NCBI GenBank assembly: GCA_963691655.1
Contig: OY829329.1
Coordinates: forward strand, 18,862,708-18,926,707
DNA from: Toxonevra muliebris
Taxonomy: Eukaryota; Arthropoda; Insecta; Diptera; Pallopteridae
Direction of reading: 5' to 3'
Length of the DNA stretch: 64,000 bases
The notes under the pieces were generated by a model. It ran no database searches, had not been told where the DNA came from, and was given only the letters and a program-made list of their open reading frames with translations. Below, in pieces: positions 6,401 through 47,430 of this stretch; the first letter of the stretch is position 1; each line of letters begins with the position of its first letter. The position numbers and the translations under genes are program-made.

Positions 6401-9400
6401 CATTGACAGCTATTCTATCTCGAAGAGCGCCAAAAATACTATAAGAATTGATCTGTCAAATAATTTTCATAATTTTACAAAAGTGTTTTACTATAGCTGA
6501 AAATGTCGAATTTCGTGCCAACAAAACAACATTTGCGGGAAGTTTTAATTTGCTCCTTCCATTTAAAGAAACACGCAACTGAAGCACATCGTTTACGTTT
6601 ACTCACTGAAGCTTATCCTGACTGTGCTATAGACGTTAGAATGTGTCAGGTGTGGTATGCCCGTTTCAAAAGTGGTGATTTTGATGTTGAAGACAGGGAA
6701 CGTTCAGGCGGCCCGAAAAAGTTCGAAGATAAAAAATTGAAGGCATTACTCGAAGAAGATTCATGTCAAACGCAACAAGAACTTACAGAATCTTTAGGAG
6801 TTGATCAATCAACCATTTCTAAACGATTAAAAGCATTGGGAATGATTCAAAAGCAAGGAAATTGGGTGCCGTACGAATTGAAGCCGAGAGACGTCGACCG
6901 ACGATTTTTCACATGTGAACTGCTGATTGAACGACAGAAAAGAAAGGGTTTTCTGCATCGTATTGTGACTGGCGATGAAAAGTGGATACGTTACAATAAC
7001 CCAAAGCTTAAAAAATCATGGGGACCGCCCGGACATGCATCAACATCAACGGCAAAGCCGAACATCCATGGATCCAAGCTCATGCCGTGTATTTGGTGGG
7101 ATATGAAAGGTGTCGTGTATTATGAGCTGTTGAAACCGAATGTAACGATCATTGGCGACCGCTACCGACTACAATTGATGCGTTTGAGCCGAGCATTAAA
7201 GGATAAGAAGACAGAATATGAGAATAGACACGGCGAAGTTATTCTTCAGCACGACAATGCTCGGCCGCATGTTGCAAGGCAAGTAAAAACATACTTGGAA
7301 ACGCTGAAATGGGAAGTGCTACCCCACCCGCCGTATTCTCCAGACATTGCTCCTTCTGATTACCACTTGTTTCGATCGATGACAAATGGCCTGGCTGAAC
7401 AGCACTTCCGTTCTTTCGAAGAACTCAAAAAATGGGTCGATTCGTGGATAGCCTCAAAAGATGAGGAGTTCTTTCGACGCGGAATCCGTATGCTACCAGA
7501 AAGATGGGAAAAGGTTGTGGCTAACGATTGACAATACTTTAAAGAATAAATTTATAATCACTTTTTCACAATAAAAGTCCAAATTACGAAAAAAATACGA
7601 GTTTATACATTCATACTCCTAATACCCTATTCAAACATTGGCTCCCACTAAAGTTTACAGTACCATATAATTGAAGTTCTGTATATGTATATTTTTTAAA
7701 ATTCTAATTTTGAGAAATTAGAAATTGTGAAGAACATTTAATTCACATACATAAAAGATAAATTTTTAATTCATAAGTTTCGTATACATAACTACAACAC
7801 AACATGTCAGCTTATTGTACAAACAAAAAAACAAACATTGCAAATACGTGTGCAGTTTGCAATCTTGCATTTTTAGCAATCAACAAACAACTGCAACACC
7901 ATTTGGGTTATCTTCGTTATAAATGATGCAATGACAAAATTTAAACAGTTTTTGGTTAAACAAGTCACGTGTGTGCAGTAGTGTCACACACATTTAATGC
8001 TATCTATAGAAAAAGACCACAAAAAATATATAATAAAATAAAATCAATAGCAAATTCAATTTATTAAGATACGCACTCTACACACACACACACACACATA
8101 CACCCATATGCACAAATAAACTAGCAAACACACATATATGTACGTTTATTTGTATTTGTTTTGCAGCGCCAACGGAAGTTCTCTTCCTAATATCAACCCA
8201 AGATACCACATACCATCATCAATTAGTAACAAAACTACGCAATGACATTATTAACCAATCTCATACAATATCCTCACAAGATTATGTTATCAAAGTTCGA
8301 ATATTGCATGAAATATTCAATCACCCTGGAGACTGGACTATTTTAACCGCCTTACCGCACCTACTACTACGAACAGCAGGCGAAACTTCACCGAACATTA
8401 TAAATGACAAGACAAAATGGATTATCTTGTGTGAAGAGAGCACACATGTTGAGCTGCGACCACTATTACAAAAATTATCTCAGGAAAATCACACGAAGGT
8501 AAGTTTTTTTTGGGGGGAGCGTGGGATGTGAGTGTGTGGTGAATGTGGTGGGAGAGCATACTACTCATTACTATTGAGGTTATGAATGCAAAAGAAGACA
8601 AAAAAAAAACAAAAAAAACAAAAGGTTGGCAATTCTGAAATATGTATTTTCGATTTGTAGAGAGAAAATGTCAACGAGAGAAAATTAATTAAAATAAATT
8701 ATAATAAATTGGCTATCGAGACGACCTCAATAGCCTAGTAGATAGTGCACTAGACTTTTATCCGGGAGGTTCGGGATCGATTCCCGTCTTCGTCTGGTGG
8801 TTAATTTTCATTACTTTCTTATATTCACTATCAATATGAAGTGTATGAGAATTATAAGATAGTGTACAAGTACACACATTGGTTGGTAATGGCAAAACCA
8901 CCAAGCCGATAAAAAATTGCCACACCGCCGTTCGAAATCGGCGTTAAACTGTAGGTCCAACTATGTGGTATCACAATGGGCCGTTCAGGCCTAAGTGTGT
9001 CTCTCGACAGCCACTCCAACCTAACCTAACCTATGTGGTATCACAATGGGTCGTTCAGGCCTAAGTGTGTCTCTCGACAACCACTCCTACCTAACCTAAC
9101 CATAATAAATAAATAGTGTTTATAAATATGAAATAAATAGGGGTGAGCAATGTAACGTTGGCATTATTTTTGTTCAATTATTCTATGCATATATACACCT
9201 GGGTCTGCATTTTCAATTCAGTATAAAGCATTAAAAATTCTGTGAGCTAGTGCTACGCTAAGTCTACGTACTACTATAATTATGATACCACAGCCCATAG
9301 AGGGCCTAGTCTGTGCTTTTTGCAACAATTCGTGTTACGTTACTTATATTTGTACACGAATGGAAGGAACCTAAAGTGTTATGCCGAATCCGAACGGCGA

Positions 9401-38394: not shown

Positions 38395-38612
38395 AGTTAA
38401 GTTTCTACTCATACAGATGAACAGAAATGGAAACAAATTTTTGAAATCAGATAATATCTTTAGGTTCTAAAAGGGCCTTGAAATTAAAAAAAAAAGTATT
38501 GATTTATGATAAAAAAACGGGAATTTTAAACCCCTTTTGGAGGCTGAAGATATTATTTAATTTCAAAAATCTGTTTCCATTTCTGTTTTTCTGAATGAGT
38601 AGAAACTTAACT
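38395..38612. repeat. Long inverted repeat (hairpin) of about 90 bp arms
   Basis: The arms 38395-38485 and 38525-38612 are reverse complements with few mismatches over the outer 65 bp (AGTTAAGTTTCTACTCAT at both tips, then AACAGAAATGGAAACA). The loop is about 40 bp. A further outer match (TGATCACATAAA at about 38368-38379, inverted near 38679-38690) suggests the palindrome is part of a larger foldback element. Confidence 0.85.
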
Positions 38613-38770: not shown

Positions 38771-39032
38771 TACGTTCAGAAGGCACAACTGTTGCCTAAC
38801 AGAGGAGAGCGTGTCTTCTGAACGCGCAGCTGTGTGTTTTTGCTCAGCCCAACTGTTGGCATTTGGACGCCATTTTTGTGATCATATTATTTTTCCGCTC
38901 TTTCATGCCAACATGTTGTTTCCCAAAAATTGGACAGACGATGCATCATGCCGTTCAGAAGACACAACAGTTTAAAAACAACTGGTGGCAATTTACAAGC
39001 AACAGTTTAAAATTTTCTATCTTCTGAACGTA
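38771..39032. repeat. Compound inverted-repeat element with the CGTTCAGAAG motif
   Basis: TACGTTCAGAAG at 38771-38782 is perfectly inverted at 39021-39032, and two internal copies (38815-38824 inverted, 38952-38961 direct) subdivide it. Short companion blocks (CACAAC, AACTGTTG) recur beside the motifs. It is MITE-like and lies 250 bp upstream of the first gene of the Harbinger-derived cluster. Confidence 0.7.
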
Positions 39033-39282: not shown

Positions 39283-40465
39283 ATGTCTGAAAAGGTAAAT
39301 TTGAAAAGTTTTGGATTAATTTTAGAACAACTTGCTCAAATGATAAAAATTTTTGTCAGAAGTGTTTCAAACGAAAACGGGATAGACCTAATCGCAAATG
39401 GAGCGATACGGAAACCAGCCAACTCGTAGACTATTTGAAGGAACATGAATTTGAGGTAATATATAATAATTGTGAAGCTTTTCCATGCTGAGTCATTTAT
39501 AATATCATTTTTAGAAACCCACTTGCAAGATATATTACAATAAATTTATCGATGAATGCAACATTGATATTGACTGGGTTTTGGCAAAAAACAAAGTACG
39601 CAACATGAAGACAATGTACTATAAGGCAACCGATTGGAAGAACTCAACCGAGGCAAGTTCACTGGGCGAGGGAAAGTGTGCAGCAGGTAGTTATAATAAT
39701 AAGCACCTAGAAATAGAATAGTAAAATAACTGAATGTTTATTTATTTAGATCTTGCCAAAAGGGTTTGCCCCTATTACGACAGTCTCCATGAAGTTTTCA
39801 GTAAACTACGGCGACCCACGCCTGCCTTGGATATATCTGAATTGGGTCCATTATGTGAAAACCTAATGTCACCACCTTCATCGCCACACTTTCGGTCAAT
39901 GGGTAGTGCGCCTGTAAATTTTATCGAAGTAACAAATAGTCAACAATCATCATTTGATTATCAACAATCAGAAGATACAATTGATGACGATGACGAAGAC
40001 GATAACAACAGTAATAGTCTTTTAATGCCAATCGACAACGAAGGACAAAATATTGAATTTAAGTTCACACCAGTCAATAAAATAGAAGCTGTTACGCTAT
40101 CGCCTGCTGAATCACAAAGCTGCAGTCTAGTGCCTTCTATGAATGCTGAGCAAACTACTGGAGGGCGGCGAAACAAAAGCAGTAGCAACAAGCGATCGCA
40201 ACCAATACCAAAAGGAGTATACACACGTACTGCTCTGCAAGATTTACTAAGTTGTCACACAGAGCGTAGTGAAATTCAAAAATCTAAACTTGACTTAGAA
40301 GAAAGAAAATTCGCTTTTGAGAAGGAGAAAACTATGCTTGAACTAGAATTACGTGGCAAAGAAATCGAAAGAGATGAGCGACTGAAAGTTTTGGAACTTG
40401 AATCGAATGAAAGAATTGCTATGAGAGAGTTGGAAATCAAATATCAAAATCAAAATAAAGATTGA
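39283..40465 (+). CDS. Myb/SANT-like DNA-binding protein with coiled-coil tail (PIF/Harbinger-derived type), 4 exons
   Basis: Exons by hand: 39283-39294, 39360-39455, 39515-39686, 39750-40465, giving about 331 aa. The first tiny exon is the least certain. Residues about 14-95 form a trihelix Myb/SANT-like domain: 'RKWSDTETSQLVDYLKEHEF', then 'IYYNKFIDECN' and 'IDWVLAKNKVRNMKTMYYKATDW' with the spaced Trp and hydrophobic residues expected. A low-complexity acidic segment follows (poly Asp/Glu/Asn, about residues 165-185), then a Ser/basic-rich linker and a C-terminal charged coiled coil starting 'LDLEERKFAFEKEK'. That tail is almost the same as the one in the MADF gene downstream. The role is inferred: DNA binding, perhaps with the transposase-derived neighbour. 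A retained transposon gene is the alternative. Confidence 0.75.
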
Positions 40466-40469
40466 AATG

Positions 40470-41220
40470 GATGTAAAAACTTGAGCTTTCTTTAGATTGA
40501 GAGATTAGATTTGTTACCATGGAAGCCATTTTTGTACCAATTGATGCGGAACGAAAACTTTTATTTACATGCACAAAAAAAAATATATTTTTTGTAGATT
40601 AATATGCAAGCGGGCATGAATTTTCTATAGTGGGAATTTTGACCAAAACAAATTTTTTCCCCTTTATTGATATTCCTTTATTGATACATATATAAGAACA
40701 AATTAATTAACTTCTTGGCCCAAAAGGGGAGTTTTAACGTCCCCTCTCTCGCTTTGCAAGGGGCATTGCCGCTAAACTATTCATAGATGCTATTGGAATT
40801 ATGTATAAGGAAAGTAAAATATATATCTTCAATAGAGGTGTAGGTATATTCAAAATAAAATAAATGTACAGGGCTTTGCAGTGCATTCAAATTACTTCTT
40901 TATACAAATATCTCAATGGAGGGAATTTGTATAATTCAGGCATTGTAACTGACCCAGAAATATGAAGAATATACACCATATTTTATATTTATAGAAATTA
41001 ATTGAATTCCTACAGGTCGAGCATGCCGTCGATCCGTTGGCGAAAATCAAAATCTTCTGATTTTTTTCGAGCATGCTCGGTGACTTCCGTTTTTGCACCC
41101 ACACGAAGGGATTCGGTCTTCGAGCATGCTCGACTTTCTCAACGGGCCTTTTTCTTAATCATTATAGATAAAGCATTTTTGTTTTTATTTAAAAAGCACA
41201 GTCAAATATTATTAACATAC
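40470..41220. other. Interval between the Myb/SANT and MADF genes, no further gene
   Basis: AT-rich 3' flank of the Myb/SANT gene with possible AATAAA signals near 40855-40862. The segment near 40800-40880 is repeated, diverged, near 41490-41570, as part of a local duplication. GAGCATGC repeats occur near 41018, 41067 and 41120. Confidence 0.5.
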
Positions 41221-41224
41221 GCAA

Positions 41225-41490
41225 CTATTTTTTCAGTCTCATTCATTTTCTCCGCTTACACGAAACCCGCAATTTTCTGCAATTTCAAGTTCATACGATT
41301 TTGTGGTATTTCAATAAATATTGGTTGGCAACAATGGCTATCTTTATATCATGTCAGTTGTGATGCCAATTGACATCACAAAATGTCGCGAATTGAACAA
41401 GCAGCTACCAACATATTTTATAAATTTGTACAGAAAATACGATTTTTCATAGAATCCTAGTAATGTCAATTTTAAACGAAACGAGTTATA
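41225..41490 (+). pseudogene. Truncated duplicate of the MADF gene's promoter and first codons
   Basis: This segment aligns with 41750-42110: the same order of 'TTTGTGGTATTT.AATAAAT', 'GGCAAC.ATGGCTA', 'GTCAG.TG.GATGCCA' and 'ACAAAATGTCG.GAATT'. After the ATG at 41383 the matching exon start ('CAAGCAGC.A.CAA.A', then 'TTTGTAC.G.AAATA') soon meets stops and ends near 41480. It is a tandem copy of the 5' end of the MADF gene that decayed. The duplication is seen directly; direction and timing are inferred. Confidence 0.75.
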
Positions 41491-41995
41491 TCATAAGGAA
41501 AAAATATATATCTTCAATAAAGGTGTCTAGTCAAACTTTTTGGTCCCAATAAAATAAATTTACAGAGTGCTCTGACCTATATAAAATTTGCGGAACTTAC
41601 ACCATATTTTATTTTTTTTTTAGAAATTATGTTATGTCATATATCTGTGTATGTATATAAGTATTTAAATTTCTTTAATAGAGCTGAACAAATTCTTCCT
41701 TCATTAAATAATGAAAATAAATCGCTGTATAGTTACGCTTGCATGCTGCCATTTTTTCACTCGTAATTTTCAAATTCCCCCAATTCCTCATGCTCGAGTT
41801 TATACGACTTTGTGGTATTTTAATAAATTGAGGGGAATTTCATGGTCGTGGGATAATTTTCATTATGGAAATTCTTCAAAAAAATTCCTCAAAAATTTAG
41901 AATTTTGAGTGTGAATTTCATATGGCAACTATGGCTAGCGTTATGTCGCGTCAGCTGCGATGCCATAAAAATCGCCATTATTTTGACATTACAAA

Positions 41996-42926
41996 ATGTC
42001 GGGAATTAAATTAAACAAGCAGCAAACAAAAAATGTTATAAGTTTGTACCGGAAATATAGTTGTCTATGGGATCCTAGAAGTGCTAGTTATAAACGAAAT
42101 GATCTAAGAAAGAAATCGTGGGAGAAATTAGCTTATCAATTGGATTCTCCAGTTGATGAAGCTAAAAAGAAAATTAAATATTTGCGTACGGCGTACCTGA
42201 GCGAGAAGAAAAAGGTGGACAAACTTAAAAAAAATGGCGATAACTATGAACCCAATCTGTTTTACTATAATGAATTTTATTTTTTGGATGGAATAGTACA
42301 GCATAGAAAATTTCCATCATTTGAAGAGGTTAGTATAAAAATGCATTCAAACTCTGAAATTCTTGACAATTTACATGAATATTACACAGAATCATTGTAG
42401 CGAAGTAGATGAAACTTCTAACTTAAAGAACAATCTGACTGTGGAAGAAGACGAGGAGGAGCAAGAAGAAGAAGAAGAAGAGCATTATGATACCGAAATG
42501 AAAATAAATGATGCGAAAAAAATGATTGATTTTGAAGAGGTTTGTGTAAAATAAATGTGTCTTAAATTCTCATTTTAATAGTTTTCAATATGAATTTCAC
42601 AGATCAACTGTATCGCTGAGGATGAGACTAATAATACGAATAAAAGAGCCAGAGAGGAAGAGTTTCACAGCACGAAAAAGAAAATCAGAGTGCAGGAAAA
42701 TCATAACAAGAATAACAATATCAGAGTGACTTACAACTCAGACCGTCAACTAGACTTGGAGGAAAGGCGTTTTGCATTTGAGAGGGAGAAAGCGCTCCGT
42801 GAACTTGACCTACGAGAAAAGGAAATAGAAAAGGATGAACGACTAAAAGTTTTAGAAATCGAATCGAAAGAAAGAATCACTATGAAAGAATTGGAGTACA
42901 AATATACTTATTTCAATCAAGAGTAA
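41996..42926 (+). CDS. MADF-domain protein with the shared coiled-coil tail (PIF/Harbinger-associated type), 3 exons
   Basis: Exons: 41996-42328, 42390-42539, 42603-42926; all junctions are phase 0, giving 268 aa. Residues about 10-105 form a MADF domain ('NVISLYRKYSCLWDP', 'RKKSWEKLAYQL', 'AKKKIKYLRTAYLSEKKK', 'FYYNEFYFLDG'), a Myb-like DNA-binding fold common in flies. Next comes a Glu-rich acidic stretch (about 129-142) and a C-terminal charged coiled coil beginning 'LDLEERRFAFEREK' that is about three-quarters identical to the tail of the Myb/SANT protein upstream. In Drosophila PIF elements the second gene encodes a MADF protein, so this is a candidate partner of the minus-strand transposase-derived gene that faces it. 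AATAAA lies at about 42964. Function in the host is unknown. Confidence 0.8.
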
Positions 42927-43019
42927 TATTAAAGTTCATTGTTTCAAAACATATATATTAAAAAATAAAGCTCAGACTTTCACTGTTTCCTGAGTAGCGT
43001 AATTGATCTGTAAATAATT

Positions 43020-43610
43020 ATTTATTCAGATAGCCAACCTGCTCTGAAGACCTTGGTAAAAAACAAGCTACAACTTCCTTCAAACCCTCATAAACAAAAA
43101 TAAACCAACTCCACAGGGTCCCAGGACATTTCACAATCATTCTGTTTTCATTACTTAGCCTTCGAAAAACAACTTTTGTCTATCGTTAATAGAAAATTAT
43201 GGAGTCAAAACTTCTGCCACACAACAGACCGTTTTTGGCCCATATTCTCGCGTAGAAAAACTGAGTTTCTGTTCCTACTTTCGTTGTTACTGGACACAAA
43301 ATTTTTAAGTATCACGCTAAAAACGACATACAGGAACTGAAATGGTTCTGTTACAAAGAACACATTCTTTGTCATTGTCCAATATTAGCTAGGACTAGAT
43401 TAAGGACGACGGAGTGTGCTCTTTCTTTCTCTAAGTGATTTAACCAATATAAACCAGGCTTCTTTAAAAAACTTTGCTATAGTGACAAATAACTTCAAAC
43501 TGGAAACAGTGATAGATGCAGTTCGAAGTTTTTATTGACCCTGGAGAGTTTGTGATAACAATATGGGCATTGAACGGTCTATGTGAGGCATTCGCCTACC
43601 ACTTCTAATC
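43020..43610 (+). mobile_element. Jockey-like LINE 3' remnant between the two Harbinger-type genes
   Basis: Plus-strand frames give 'ALKTLVKNKLQ' (about 43040-43075, RNase H end), 'SFSLSDLTNINQASLKNF' (about 43425-43485) and 'NNFKLETVIDAVRSFY' (about 43490-43535), the order seen at the end of jockey-type elements. Several stops. It separates the convergent MADF and nuclease-like genes and so postdates any joint origin. Confidence 0.65.
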
Positions 43611-43654
43611 TAACTTTAATTTAAATTGCATTAAAATTAATCGTATAATCTTTA

Positions 43655-44905
43655 TTAATACGCACCCGTTCTATTTAAATATTCACAAAGTCCCAGTCTT
43701 AAATTACTGCATTCTAATATCTCGTGTGGGTATTGCAATGCTTGAACATCTTGATTAGATTCAATTTCATCGTCAATTTCCATGAATTTAAGTATATTAT
43801 ACAAAATACAGCAAACAACAGTCCATTCATAGCACGACTTGTTGTTTTCAGCTGTTCCACAGCGAAATTTCCAATCTTTTAAACTTGGAAACATTCGTTT
43901 CAGCTGGTGGTAACAATTTTCAATAGAAGCATGATATTTTTCAAAGCGTTGATTAAAATTCTCACGCACTTCTTTCGTGCATTCTGTACTTTTTATAGGA
44001 AAAGGTGTTATTACTGTATTTGAAGCCTTATGCATAGCTCCTGCAGCTAGCCACTGCAAATCTGAAAAGTATTTATCCGGTTGTTTTGCTATAGCACATG
44101 TTGAAAATATGCTCGCTTCTTGCGAACGGCCTGGATGGCACAAGGAGACTTGTCGTATTCTTAAATTATAATCAGTGATTATTTGTACTTTCACTGAATA
44201 CTGTTTTCGTTGTTTCGACCAATATATTTCTCGATATTTTAGAGGAGGATTATTCGATTTTACTTCCATACAACCAAGATAGCCAATACAACCGGGAAGT
44301 TCACTCATTGACTGTTTTACAATATTAGCTCTCTCCTTAGTATTTGGCCATTTTATATAAAGTTTGCGTAATTTCAAAATAGCGCTAAAAATACGTTGCA
44401 TTACCTTCGGTATTGTGCCACCATCACCAATGCCAAATGTTAAAGCAGTTTTTCTTATAGAAGCGCCCCCCAAGCGAAAGAGTGTAATTTGTAATTGCAA
44501 TTTCACAGGCATTTGACTTGATCGCATATGTTCAAAGGTTGAGTCTTTAGAAATTAAATTTAAAATATGCTGAAACTGAAATAATTCCATGCCAAACAGT
44601 TTCTTATATTGAGCGTCCGTAAAATTGTGCAGAATATTTCCATTTTTAATGATCTTTGGGTTGTATCTGTTTCTTGTAACACCGGCTAGATAAGTAGCTT
44701 TGCGATGGCACAGCAGCGTTACAGCATCTTCGAAGAAGTCATCCATTACTCTATCTTCTTCATCACCTAGAGGGGAGATACTATTTTACCATTCATTAAT
44801 CATAACAAAATTTATTTAAATACTTGAATCTGCATCACAGAGATCCAAAATAGTTTCGTGAATTAAAAAATTAAATATTTTATCTTTTTCGCTTTTTCTT
44901 GGCAT
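43655..44905 (-). CDS. HARBI1-like PIF/Harbinger transposase-derived protein, catalytic residues lost, 2 exons
   Basis: Exons on the minus strand: 44905-44824 and 44766-43655, joined by a 57 bp intron with a split Ser codon, giving 397 aa. After an acidic leader ('DSSDEEDRVMDDFFEDAV') comes the helix-turn-helix region of the family (about 75-155) and the DDE_4 nuclease fold. Compared with HARBI1, the first catalytic Asp (G-V-V-D-C-I-H) is Gly at about 192 ('GYLGCMEV') and the Asp of L-L-G-D-S is Gly at about 270 ('WLAAGAMHK'); the Glu of the I-E-K/N motif remains (about 310, 'ASIENCYHQLKRMF'). The frame is otherwise complete. An intact reading frame with a dead active site is the usual mark of domestication. 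AATAAA overlaps the stop codon (43656-43651). Confidence 0.85.
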
Positions 44906-45501
44906 TTTATTCGAATTTTCCTTCAGGATAGCAAAAATCACGAAATAAGGGCGTTCACACTGAGAGAACTTATTTCGACATACTTTAATAAATAAATATT
45001 TATGTATATATTCGAAAAATTCACAACTTTTGCAATAAGAGATTAAATTGTACAATCCTTTTTTGATTCAAACATCATCACCAAAGATTTGATGAAGATT
45101 TTAAATAATTATTATGGTAATGTGGTGTTGGTGTAACCGAAAAATCCCAACAGACACCAGCTGCTTAGGAAACGTTCAGAAAGTGAAATCAATTTATATT
45201 TCAGGGATGACTAATTATTATAATAAATATCAACAAATAAAACGAAACCAATTTCGTTAAAAAGAAAGTCGTTCTGACTTCATATATTTGTAAAAATTTG
45301 AATTTCCTAAAAATAAGATTACTAACAAAGGCATTTTATCATAAAATTATTCTGATTACAATAATCTGATTGGCACACGGCAACCCTATCAAATGATAAA
45401 ATTTTTCCAACAAAACCAAAAACAAAAAAAGGAAGGAGATTAAAAAAATTGTTTATTGAACAAATACCACGAAAAAACTGAAATATATTTATTGGAATAA
45501 A
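44906..45501. other. Divergent intergenic region between the Harbinger-derived gene and mtm
   Basis: About 600 bp separates the two start codons, so both promoters should lie here. AT-rich. An ACGTTCAGAAAG near 45172-45183 resembles the CGTTCAGAAG motif at 38771-39032. No other feature seen. Confidence 0.5.
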
Positions 45502-47430
45502 ATGGAAAAAGCAGATGTTTTGGATACTGTTACATCGCTCACGGATAAAATAACTTCGAAGAATGCTAGCACGAACTCTTTGGATACTGCAGACTCCAAA
45601 TCTAGTTCCATCGGCTCGAAGCAAGGTAACACCGAGACACGGGACACACCCTTTACTTATCTTGACGGTGAAGAAGATCAGGATCAAAAAAATGACGTTA
45701 CCTACGTGTGCCCGTTTCGCGGTCCGGCATTCGGTGCACTAACAATCACCAACTTCCGTTTGTACTTCCGGTCACTACCGTTGCGAGATCATGAACCACC
45801 AGTGGTGGTGGATGTGCCGCTGGGTGTAATAGCTCGTGTTGAAAAAATAGGTGGTGCCACGTCACGTGGCGAAAACTCCTATGGGATTGAAATCTTTTGT
45901 AAAGATATGCGTAATTTGCGATTTGCTCATAAGCAGCAGAATCATTCGCGCCGTACAGTTTTCGAAAAATTGCAATCGTATGCATTTCCGCTTTCGTACA
46001 GTGGTCGCTTGTTTGCATTCGCTCATGCTACCGCCACAGGCCCACCGCTGTCTGCTGCCGACAATGGCTGGGCGGTGTATGAACCGTTGGCTGAGTTAAG
46101 GCGGATGGGTGTGCCGAACGATATGTGGCGCGTCACCAAATTGAATGAAGCGTATGCTGTGTGTGATAGTTATCCAGCAGTGTGGGCGGTGCCCAAAGCT
46201 GCATGCGATGATTTTTTGCGTCGTGTCGCACAATTTCGTTCACGTTGTCGGCTGCCGGTACTCTCGTGGATACATCCGCGTTCACAGGCAACCATAACGC
46301 GCTGCTCCCAGCCGTTGGTGGGTGTGGGCGGTAAGCGTTCAGCTGATGATGAACTCTACTTGAGTTATATTATGGAAGCGAATGTGCAATCGGATAAGTT
46401 GGCAATTATTGATGCCAGACCCAGCGCCAATGCTATTGCTAACAAGGCTAAGGGTGGTGGGTACGAGTCGGAAGAAGCATATAAAAATGTAGAAATACAT
46501 TTTTTGGACATACACAACATACATGTGATGCGTGAAAGTTTGCGTAAGGTGAAGGAGGCTTGCTATCCCACCATAGATGACTCCAAATGGTTATCAGCGA
46601 TTGATAGCACATTCTGGCTGAAACATATTAAGGGTATACTAGCGGGTGCGGTGCGTATTGTTGACAAGGTGGAGACGATGAGCACTTCGGTAGTCGTACA
46701 TTGTTCAGATGGTTGGGATCGTACTGCGCAGCTAACAGCCCTGGCAATGCTACTACTTGATCCATATTATCGCACATTGCGTGGTTTCGAGGTGCTCATC
46801 GAGAAGGAATGGCTTTCGTTCGGTCACAAGTTTCAACAGCGTATCGGACATGGTGATAATCGGCATTCGGATGCTGACCGTTCACCGGTTTTCTTGCAAT
46901 TTATCGATTGTGTGTGGCAGGTCAGCCAGCAGTTTCCCAATGCATTCGAGTTCAATGAACACTTTCTCATCACCATCATTGATCATTTGTATTCATGTCG
47001 CTTCGGCACATTTCTTTGCAATACTGAGGCGGAACGTGTTGCTGAAGGTAAAAATCATTTTAATATCATAATAAAATTATTCAACACTCTTTTTTTTTTC
47101 TTTCTCCATTTAGATCTAAAACACAAAACAGTTTCCCTGTGGACGCACATTAATTCTTCACTAAATCAATATTTGAATCCGCTTGCATTCTCTCATGGCG
47201 CCCAAACAGTTTTGCGTCCCATTGCCAGCATGCGTATCGTAAAACTTTGGAAAGGGCTTTACTGTCGCTGGAATCCAAGCATGAGACCGCAGAATAAAAT
47301 TTATCAGCGTACACGTGAGCTGCTTGCGCTGCAGGAACAATTGATCAAACAAGTCAGTGATCTGCGCATGAAAACAAATTCACGACAGACTGCGCAGACT
47401 TCAACTCGATTGGCCTCACCTATGCATTAA
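45502..47430 (+). CDS. mtm: Myotubularin, phosphoinositide 3-phosphatase, 2 exons
   Basis: The family removes the 3-phosphate from PI3P and PI(3,5)P2 on endosomal membranes. Exons 45502-47047 and 47114-47430 give 620 aa, in line with the fly orthologue. The 66 bp intron (GTAAAA...TTTAG) is a multiple of three without a stop, so an unspliced read-through of 642 codons is also open. An acidic, Ser-rich leader (1-60) precedes a PH-GRAM domain (about 65-175, '[16 protein letters not shown]'). The phosphatase domain (about 230-560) has the active-site loop '[11 protein letters not shown]' with Cys401 and Arg407, so this is a catalytically competent member. A C-terminal heptad-like helix follows ('[17 protein letters not shown]'). 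A likely AATAAA is near 47836. Confidence 0.96.
47048..47113 (+). other. Stop-free 66 bp intron of mtm
   Basis: Donor GTAAAA after GAAG and acceptor TTTAG after a long pyrimidine tract. Splicing yields '[12 protein letters not shown]', which fits the family, while retention inserts 22 residues rich in Phe, Asn and Ile that do not. Confidence 0.85.

Follow-up and report, generated by a model that had tools for sequence, protein, structure and literature searches.

Partnerships between a nuclease and a separate DNA-binding protein are a known trait of PIF/Harbinger transposons. Entry of the PIF nuclease into the nucleus requires a Myb-like partner, and for one of these partners a 9-bp binding motif has been described (PMC9710019). 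Co-domestication of PIF transposase genes with MADF genes has been published for insects, in a minimum of four pairs, and according to the same paper none of these genes was traceable to PIF elements of its own genome (PMC9710019). In Arabidopsis, ALP1 no longer has two of the three catalytic residues and now serves as an accessory of Polycomb repressive complex 2 (PRC2) (PMC4671723); for its partner ALP2, a coiled coil is predicted at the C terminus (PMC7282668). Here we describe a locus of the fly Toxonevra muliebris (Diptera, Pallopteridae) at which three predicted genes lie within 5.6 kb: g1, for a Myb/SANT protein, g2, for a MADF protein, and g3, for a HARBI1-like protein. The locus is situated in a 64-kb stretch of contig OY829329.1 (positions 18,862,708 to 18,926,707; assembly GCA_963691655.1, 491 Mb in 96 contigs), which is referred to below as the window and to which all plain positions refer. 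We consider it reasonably probable that g1 and g3 are a co-domesticated PIF pair, that g2 is a chimera which arose within the former element, and that the three products form a regulatory assembly.

The locus shares several features with the insect pairs DPLG7-DPM7, APLG1-APM1, APLG2-APM2 and LPLG2-LPM2, in which a single-copy transposase gene adjoins a DNA-binding partner, the coding regions are open and no terminal inverted repeats (TIRs) were recognized (PMC9710019). Those systems are pairs, whereas here a trio is present, in which the element's own partner reads as the Myb/SANT protein and the MADF gene bears that partner's helix; moreover, relict elements of like layout are found in the same genome, though distant (37% identity). 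The ALP1-ALP2 system likewise combines a PIF-derived nuclease deprived of two catalytic residues with a Harbinger DNA-binding relative that has a predicted coiled coil, both being PRC2 accessories, but it consists of two plant genes, without a MADF chimera and without a claim of common domestication (PMC4671723, PMC7282668). The vertebrate HARBI1-NAIF1 system is also composed of two genes, and its nuclease-like protein needs a Myb-like partner for nuclear localization (PMC9710019). ADF-1L has been described as a PIF-derived MADF protein that recruits a histone acetyltransferase to its own and an adjacent gene; it differs in being a single gene, and its abstract mentions neither a transposase partner nor a common helix (PMC11893794). 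Searches of open-licence PMC papers found neither a trio of this kind nor a MADF gene that bears the helix of a PIF Myb protein, and no case from tephritids or hoverflies. Co-domestication of insect PIF genes with their partners is already known; the three-part version would be a new form of it.

All three genes had been placed by an initial annotation made from the DNA alone, and their positions were confirmed: for each of them, predicted splicing at GT-AG introns joins the exons into one open frame. Gene g1 points right, g3 points left and g2 lies between them. On the basis of Pfam matches above the curated cut-offs, g2 was assigned to the MADF family (E 2.2e-17) and g3 to DDE_Tnp_4, the HARBI1-type nuclease (E 5.2e-17, residues 192-351). 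The g1 protein reaches Myb_DNA-bind_4 at just 13.9 bits (cut-off 27) and is too divergent for Pfam, so the label rests on its matches to Myb genes that adjoin PIF transposases in the same genome, at the loci L025, L026 and L028. No BESS family was found among the Pfam matches of g2 up to E 1, a short motif that can escape such a search.

The origin of g1 and g3 was deduced from these relatives. At L028 (C5:14.52 Mb), a full-length PIF element spans 2835 bp; each of its ends carries the TIR ATGGGTATTCACG, and a 3-bp duplication (AAT) is present. The element contains a transposase gene with a stop codon, facing a gene that encodes a Myb domain and a helix, and no MADF gene was found within it. 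The transposase intron is located after codon 29 (phase 1) in L028 and after codon 27 (phase 1) in g3, and the two intron donors of the L028 Myb domain, of phases 0 and 1, agree with the second and third introns of g1 in both phase and residue. L051 and L055 also have convergent HARBI/Myb pairs, and so do L025 and L026, which are two copies of a single segment with 99% identity; in none of these PIF stretches, L028 included, was a MADF-domain match found. Given the head-on layout and the intron phases common to L028 and the window, we conclude that g1 and g3 are both genes of what appears to be one PIF/Harbinger insertion. Together with the DDE_Tnp_4 match, this bears out the PIF/Harbinger origin proposed in the initial annotation for these two genes.

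Other PIF-type genes were encountered in the same genome. At L027, L047 and L053, Myb/SANT genes with the helix were seen, and no transposase match was present in the fetched stretch; they are possibly further domesticated genes. Two HARBI1-like matches lie 14 kb apart (G000:C1:93928043-93928747 and C1:93942702-93943415), with long stop-free frames of 369 and 335 residues, 27% and 23% identical to g3, respectively. They may represent other intact PIF-type genes or copies.

Mobile PIF copies would be expected to recur with TIRs and target-site duplications, and the initial annotation had named many near-identical copies of this kind as the first of the findings that would refute its reading. 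They were sought and not found: no near-identical copy of g1, g2 or g3 was reported across the 491 Mb (genome-wide repeat counts are to be read as minima). A single place was found for the first 1001 bases of g1. A search with g1 gave at least 16 matches, comprising three of its own exons, the helix of g2 (68% identity) and Myb domains or helices with no more than 43%. With g2, at least 57 matches were obtained: its own three, the g1 helix, two further helices and 51 in the MADF part, whose identity is at most 41% where 90 or more residues align and rises to 59% in short ones; MADF domain and helix recur together at no second place among these 57. The sole full match among at least 46 obtained with g3 is g3 itself; the longest other one (residues 31-355) is 38% identical and has a stop, and the others are mostly fragments, of which short ones reach 60%.

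No TIR of the L028 type, correctly oriented, was found around the locus by motif search (up to 3 mismatches). Motif matches at 44947 (plus strand, AAGGGCGTTCAC) and 39077 (minus strand), which flank the trio closely on the outside, have the wrong orientation for element ends and were ascribed to chance, and the remaining five fall within or between the three genes. A scan for 15-mer TIRs with a 3-bp flank gave two candidates at the locus, each with 3 mismatches; L028 yielded one pair with 1 mismatch and L025 yielded 3-mismatch pairs only. The list of inverted repeats, likewise rejected as a source of element ends, contained pairs that were short or rich in A+T and, beyond the locus, one fold-back. 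No convincing TIR was found around the locus. The locus lacks the marks of an active transposon (TIRs with a 3-bp duplication, an intact DDE triad, similar copies elsewhere) and displays marks of a domesticated gene, namely a single copy, an open frame and no recognizable TIR. These results support the earlier view of domestication rather than of a mobile copy.

The predicted nuclease was aligned with seven relatives (six database proteins and L028), which gave 86 invariant columns. At the first of the columns that we take to be those of the DDE triad, g3 has G192, where six of the seven relatives have aspartate; the seventh, the HARBI1-like protein P0004 of Calliphora vicina, has glutamate. 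The conserved GDSAYPL is replaced by AGAMHKA (D270 to G) and E310 is kept, so that two of the three acids are gone, in agreement with the initial description of an intact frame without its active site. HARBI1 itself retains its catalytic residues. Altogether g3 differs at 31 of the 86 invariant columns: 20/45 in the catalytic core, 8/32 in the N part, 1/7 in the C part and two gap columns. Omission of each relative in turn gave departures of g3 at 29-38 of 85-103 columns, against departures of the omitted relative at 1-19 of 87-105. PDB sequence searches returned nothing for this alignment (A1; E 1e-3) or for g2 (E 1).

In a neutral simulation that allowed only substitutions, the frame of g3 survived to 5% changed residues in 517 of 2000 runs, to 10% in 120 of 2000, and to 20% or 33% in none of 500 each. 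A frame so much changed and yet open suggests selection for a function other than cutting. We consider that g3 is probably no longer a cutter and has probably been selected for another role.

The C-terminal charged helix common to g1 and g2 had been missed in the initial annotation, as had a decayed copy of the 5′ region of g2. The two helix-coding segments are 76% identical over 158 bp (blastn, E 1e-26), and their products share 40 of 59 residues (68%). Differences at codon positions 1, 2 and 3 number 9, 8 and 25 of 54. The other copies of the helix that were seen (L027, L028, L047 and L053) are all on Myb genes; hence g2 looks like a chimera, in which a MADF domain was fused to a copy of the helix in the last exon of g1. 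Against these four, the g1 and g2 helices show 38-58% identity. A database search with g2 gave two matches, both from hoverflies (Eupeodes and Episyrphus). Its MADF domain is closest to P0007, a MADF protein from a hoverfly; the helix was not seen in P0007. The Episyrphus Myb protein P0008, a relative of g1 (29% over 99 residues of the Myb region), surfaced via the g2 search alone; its helix is 68% identical to that of g1 and 73% to that of g2, about as near to them as they are to each other, so the g1-g2 split is not recent. No relative of g1 or g2 was obtained from Bactrocera dorsalis, although the database includes proteins of that species (the extent of coverage is uncertain). The initial attribution of the locus to a tephritid is not supported by these matches, nor by g1, which had no match at E 1e-3.

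The duplicate upstream of g2 was recovered by blastn as three pieces (41326-41484, 41285-41319 and 40796-40841) and has a stop at a conserved tryptophan and gaps relative to g2. Over 32 codons the two copies differ at 17 residues; P0007 agrees with g2 at 8 of these and with the duplicate at none. This indicates that the MADF domain of g2 has probably been held by selection since the duplication. Within g2, a near-repeat holds both intron donors (42320-42340 and 42531-42551, 90% over 21 nt), and the residues after the two introns are alike (HCSEVDETSN and NCIAEDETNN), which suggests an internal exon duplication.

How g2 came to lie between two PIF genes can be explained in several ways. It might be a host MADF gene working alone, a bystander beside a co-domesticated g1/g3 pair. 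MADF matches are indeed plentiful in the genome (51 of the 57 g2 matches), the PIF stretches examined hold none, and the helix is likewise unseen in the closest MADF protein; but the C-terminal 50-60 residues of g2 are homologous to the g1 helix, and the further helix copies seen are on Myb genes, which ties g2 to the PIF system. We regard a bystander g2 as unlikely. It is also conceivable, if rather improbable, that one unusual PIF element already carried Myb and MADF genes with common helices. The trio is compact, with its outer genes head-on, MADF-domain PIF partners have been reported (PMC9710019), and the split looks old, since the g2 helix resembles the hoverfly Myb helix (73%) as much as that of g1 (68%). 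Such an origin would agree with the initial annotation, which had the MADF gene arrive with the transposon as an element gene. This was not supported, since the PIF elements seen in the genome carry Myb/SANT genes beside the transposase. Elsewhere, no g2 match lies within 5 kb of a HARBI match (57 against 46 matches, both lower bounds), a test of limited reach that missed known pairs: with the 16 g1 matches it recovered the C3:46.2 Mb copies only, and the pairs at L028, L051 and L055 went undetected. One g2/HARBI pair of matches occurs on C3, 15.7 kb apart. The spacing between g1 and g3 is 3.2 kb, partly filled by g2, versus 166 bp between the two genes of L028.

The genome contains many PIF fragments and the loss of an active site could be simple decay, so the locus might be a dying transposon, an old PIF copy in which stops are still to come. 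We consider this very improbable: chance would almost never leave the g3 frame open after changes at 31 of 86 invariant columns (0/500 at 20%), the MADF domain of g2 was conserved while its duplicate decayed, and no convincing TIR was found.

We therefore return to the co-domesticated g1/g3 pair with a chimeric g2. A two-gene PIF/Harbinger element, with Myb/SANT and DDE nuclease genes head-on, would have inserted beside mtm; the host would have retained both genes while the element ends decayed and two of the three catalytic acids disappeared from g3. Between them g2 would have arisen, from a MADF domain and a copy of the C-terminal helix of the Myb protein. Proteins g1 and g2 may form homo- or hetero-oligomers via the common helix, and one or both may carry g3 into the nucleus, as has been reported of other PIF pairs. 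By analogy with ALP1-ALP2 and the PIF partners, g1 would be the carrier of g3 and the common helix would admit the MADF protein. Such an assembly could read two kinds of DNA site, with g3 as a scaffold that recruits chromatin or transcription regulators. The sequence speaks for the PIF origin of g1 and g3, the absence of near-identical copies, the loss of the active site, the intact frames and the apparent chimeric nature of g2; oligomerization, nuclear carriage and regulation are inferred.

Several observations weigh against this reading. The 4-codon first exon of g1 is a prediction. L028 is 36.6% identical to g3, which makes it a cousin rather than the parent, and in its Myb gene no position could be assigned to the first acceptor. 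Stops occur in 32 of the 45 other g3 matches, but introns were counted too (two in the g3 match itself), which makes them weak evidence of decay. The evidence of selection comes from within the genome, i.e. from the frame simulation, the decayed duplicate and the helix dN/dS. The 8-to-0 result (sign test, P 0.008; 8 informative sites, one outgroup, P0007) favours g2 somewhat, P0007 having been found by its likeness to g2. The helix estimates (NG86 dN 0.17, dS 2.0; YN00 dN 0.24, dS 0.58; maximum likelihood dS 3.2) give a rough ratio, as dS ranges over 0.58-3.2 and may cover a period of life as a transposon. Support for the helix tree was weak, and pairwise identities were used instead. The g1 helix has no peak at the heptad period and may be a weak oligomerizer. 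An AlphaFold2 model of g3 exon 2 (7 sequences) had a mean pLDDT of 49.8, with blocks of the catalytic region mostly at 27-49, and is too poor for a judgement of the fold. The whole g1 protein found no database match at E 1e-3; for g3 the best-scoring match was 39% identical and the highest identity was 45%, over 75% of the protein. Thus no orthologue as similar as a conserved gene should have was found, and the trio could be young, lineage-restricted or merely unannotated elsewhere.

Features of the locus are summarized in Table 1. The four exact copies of CGTTCAGAAG are all that the window contains (0.08 expected in 64 kb) and lie 250-510 bp upstream of g1; three copies were found in 242 kb drawn from other loci that overlap in part. 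Tolerating one mismatch gives 5 copies in the window, a number also reached in 18 of 100 shuffles and hence not unusual. The cluster could represent control sites or a small repeat. On the side of g3, the gene mtm (myotubularin; Pfam) begins at 45502. The window also contains an open 342-residue frame of a mariner (Mos1-type) transposase (6503-7531) and a fold-back repeat (38395-38612) with 91-nt arms, 86% complementary and separated by 36 nt.

Table 1. Predicted genes and associated sequence features of the trio locus in the window.
Feature	Position	Strand	Description
Four exact CGTTCAGAAG sites	38773..39030	.	order + - + -; candidate control sites upstream of g1
g1	39283..40465	+	Myb/SANT (trihelix-type) and C-terminal charged helix; exons 39283-39294, 39360-39455, 39515-39686, 39750-40465; 331 aa, predicted
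Charged helix of g1, coding	40287..40444	+	homologous to 42748-42905 of g2
Upstream tandem-duplicate copy of g2 5′ region	40796..41484	+	includes decayed first ~35 codons of g2
g2	41996..42926	+	MADF and PIF-Myb-type C-terminal helix; exons 41996-42328, 42390-42539, 42603-42926; 268 aa, predicted
Charged helix of g2, coding	42748..42905	+	homologous to the g1 helix
g3	43655..44905	-	HARBI1-like; exons 44905-44824, 44766-43655; 397 aa, predicted; D192 and D270 lost, E310 kept

We tentatively propose, while thinking it somewhat doubtful, that the locus encodes a three-part host regulator derived from one insertion, in which Myb/SANT and MADF proteins joined by a copied helix are arranged around a nuclease turned scaffold, the original pair having been extended where it stood, through the copying of an exon and the fusion of domains. 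If this is true, a domesticated transposon can grow, gaining a third subunit when its interaction helix is grafted onto a different DNA-binding domain. The locus would offer a compact test case for the role of catalytically dead PIF nucleases and, unlike the published insect cases, one for which relict elements of like layout survive in the same genome for comparison.

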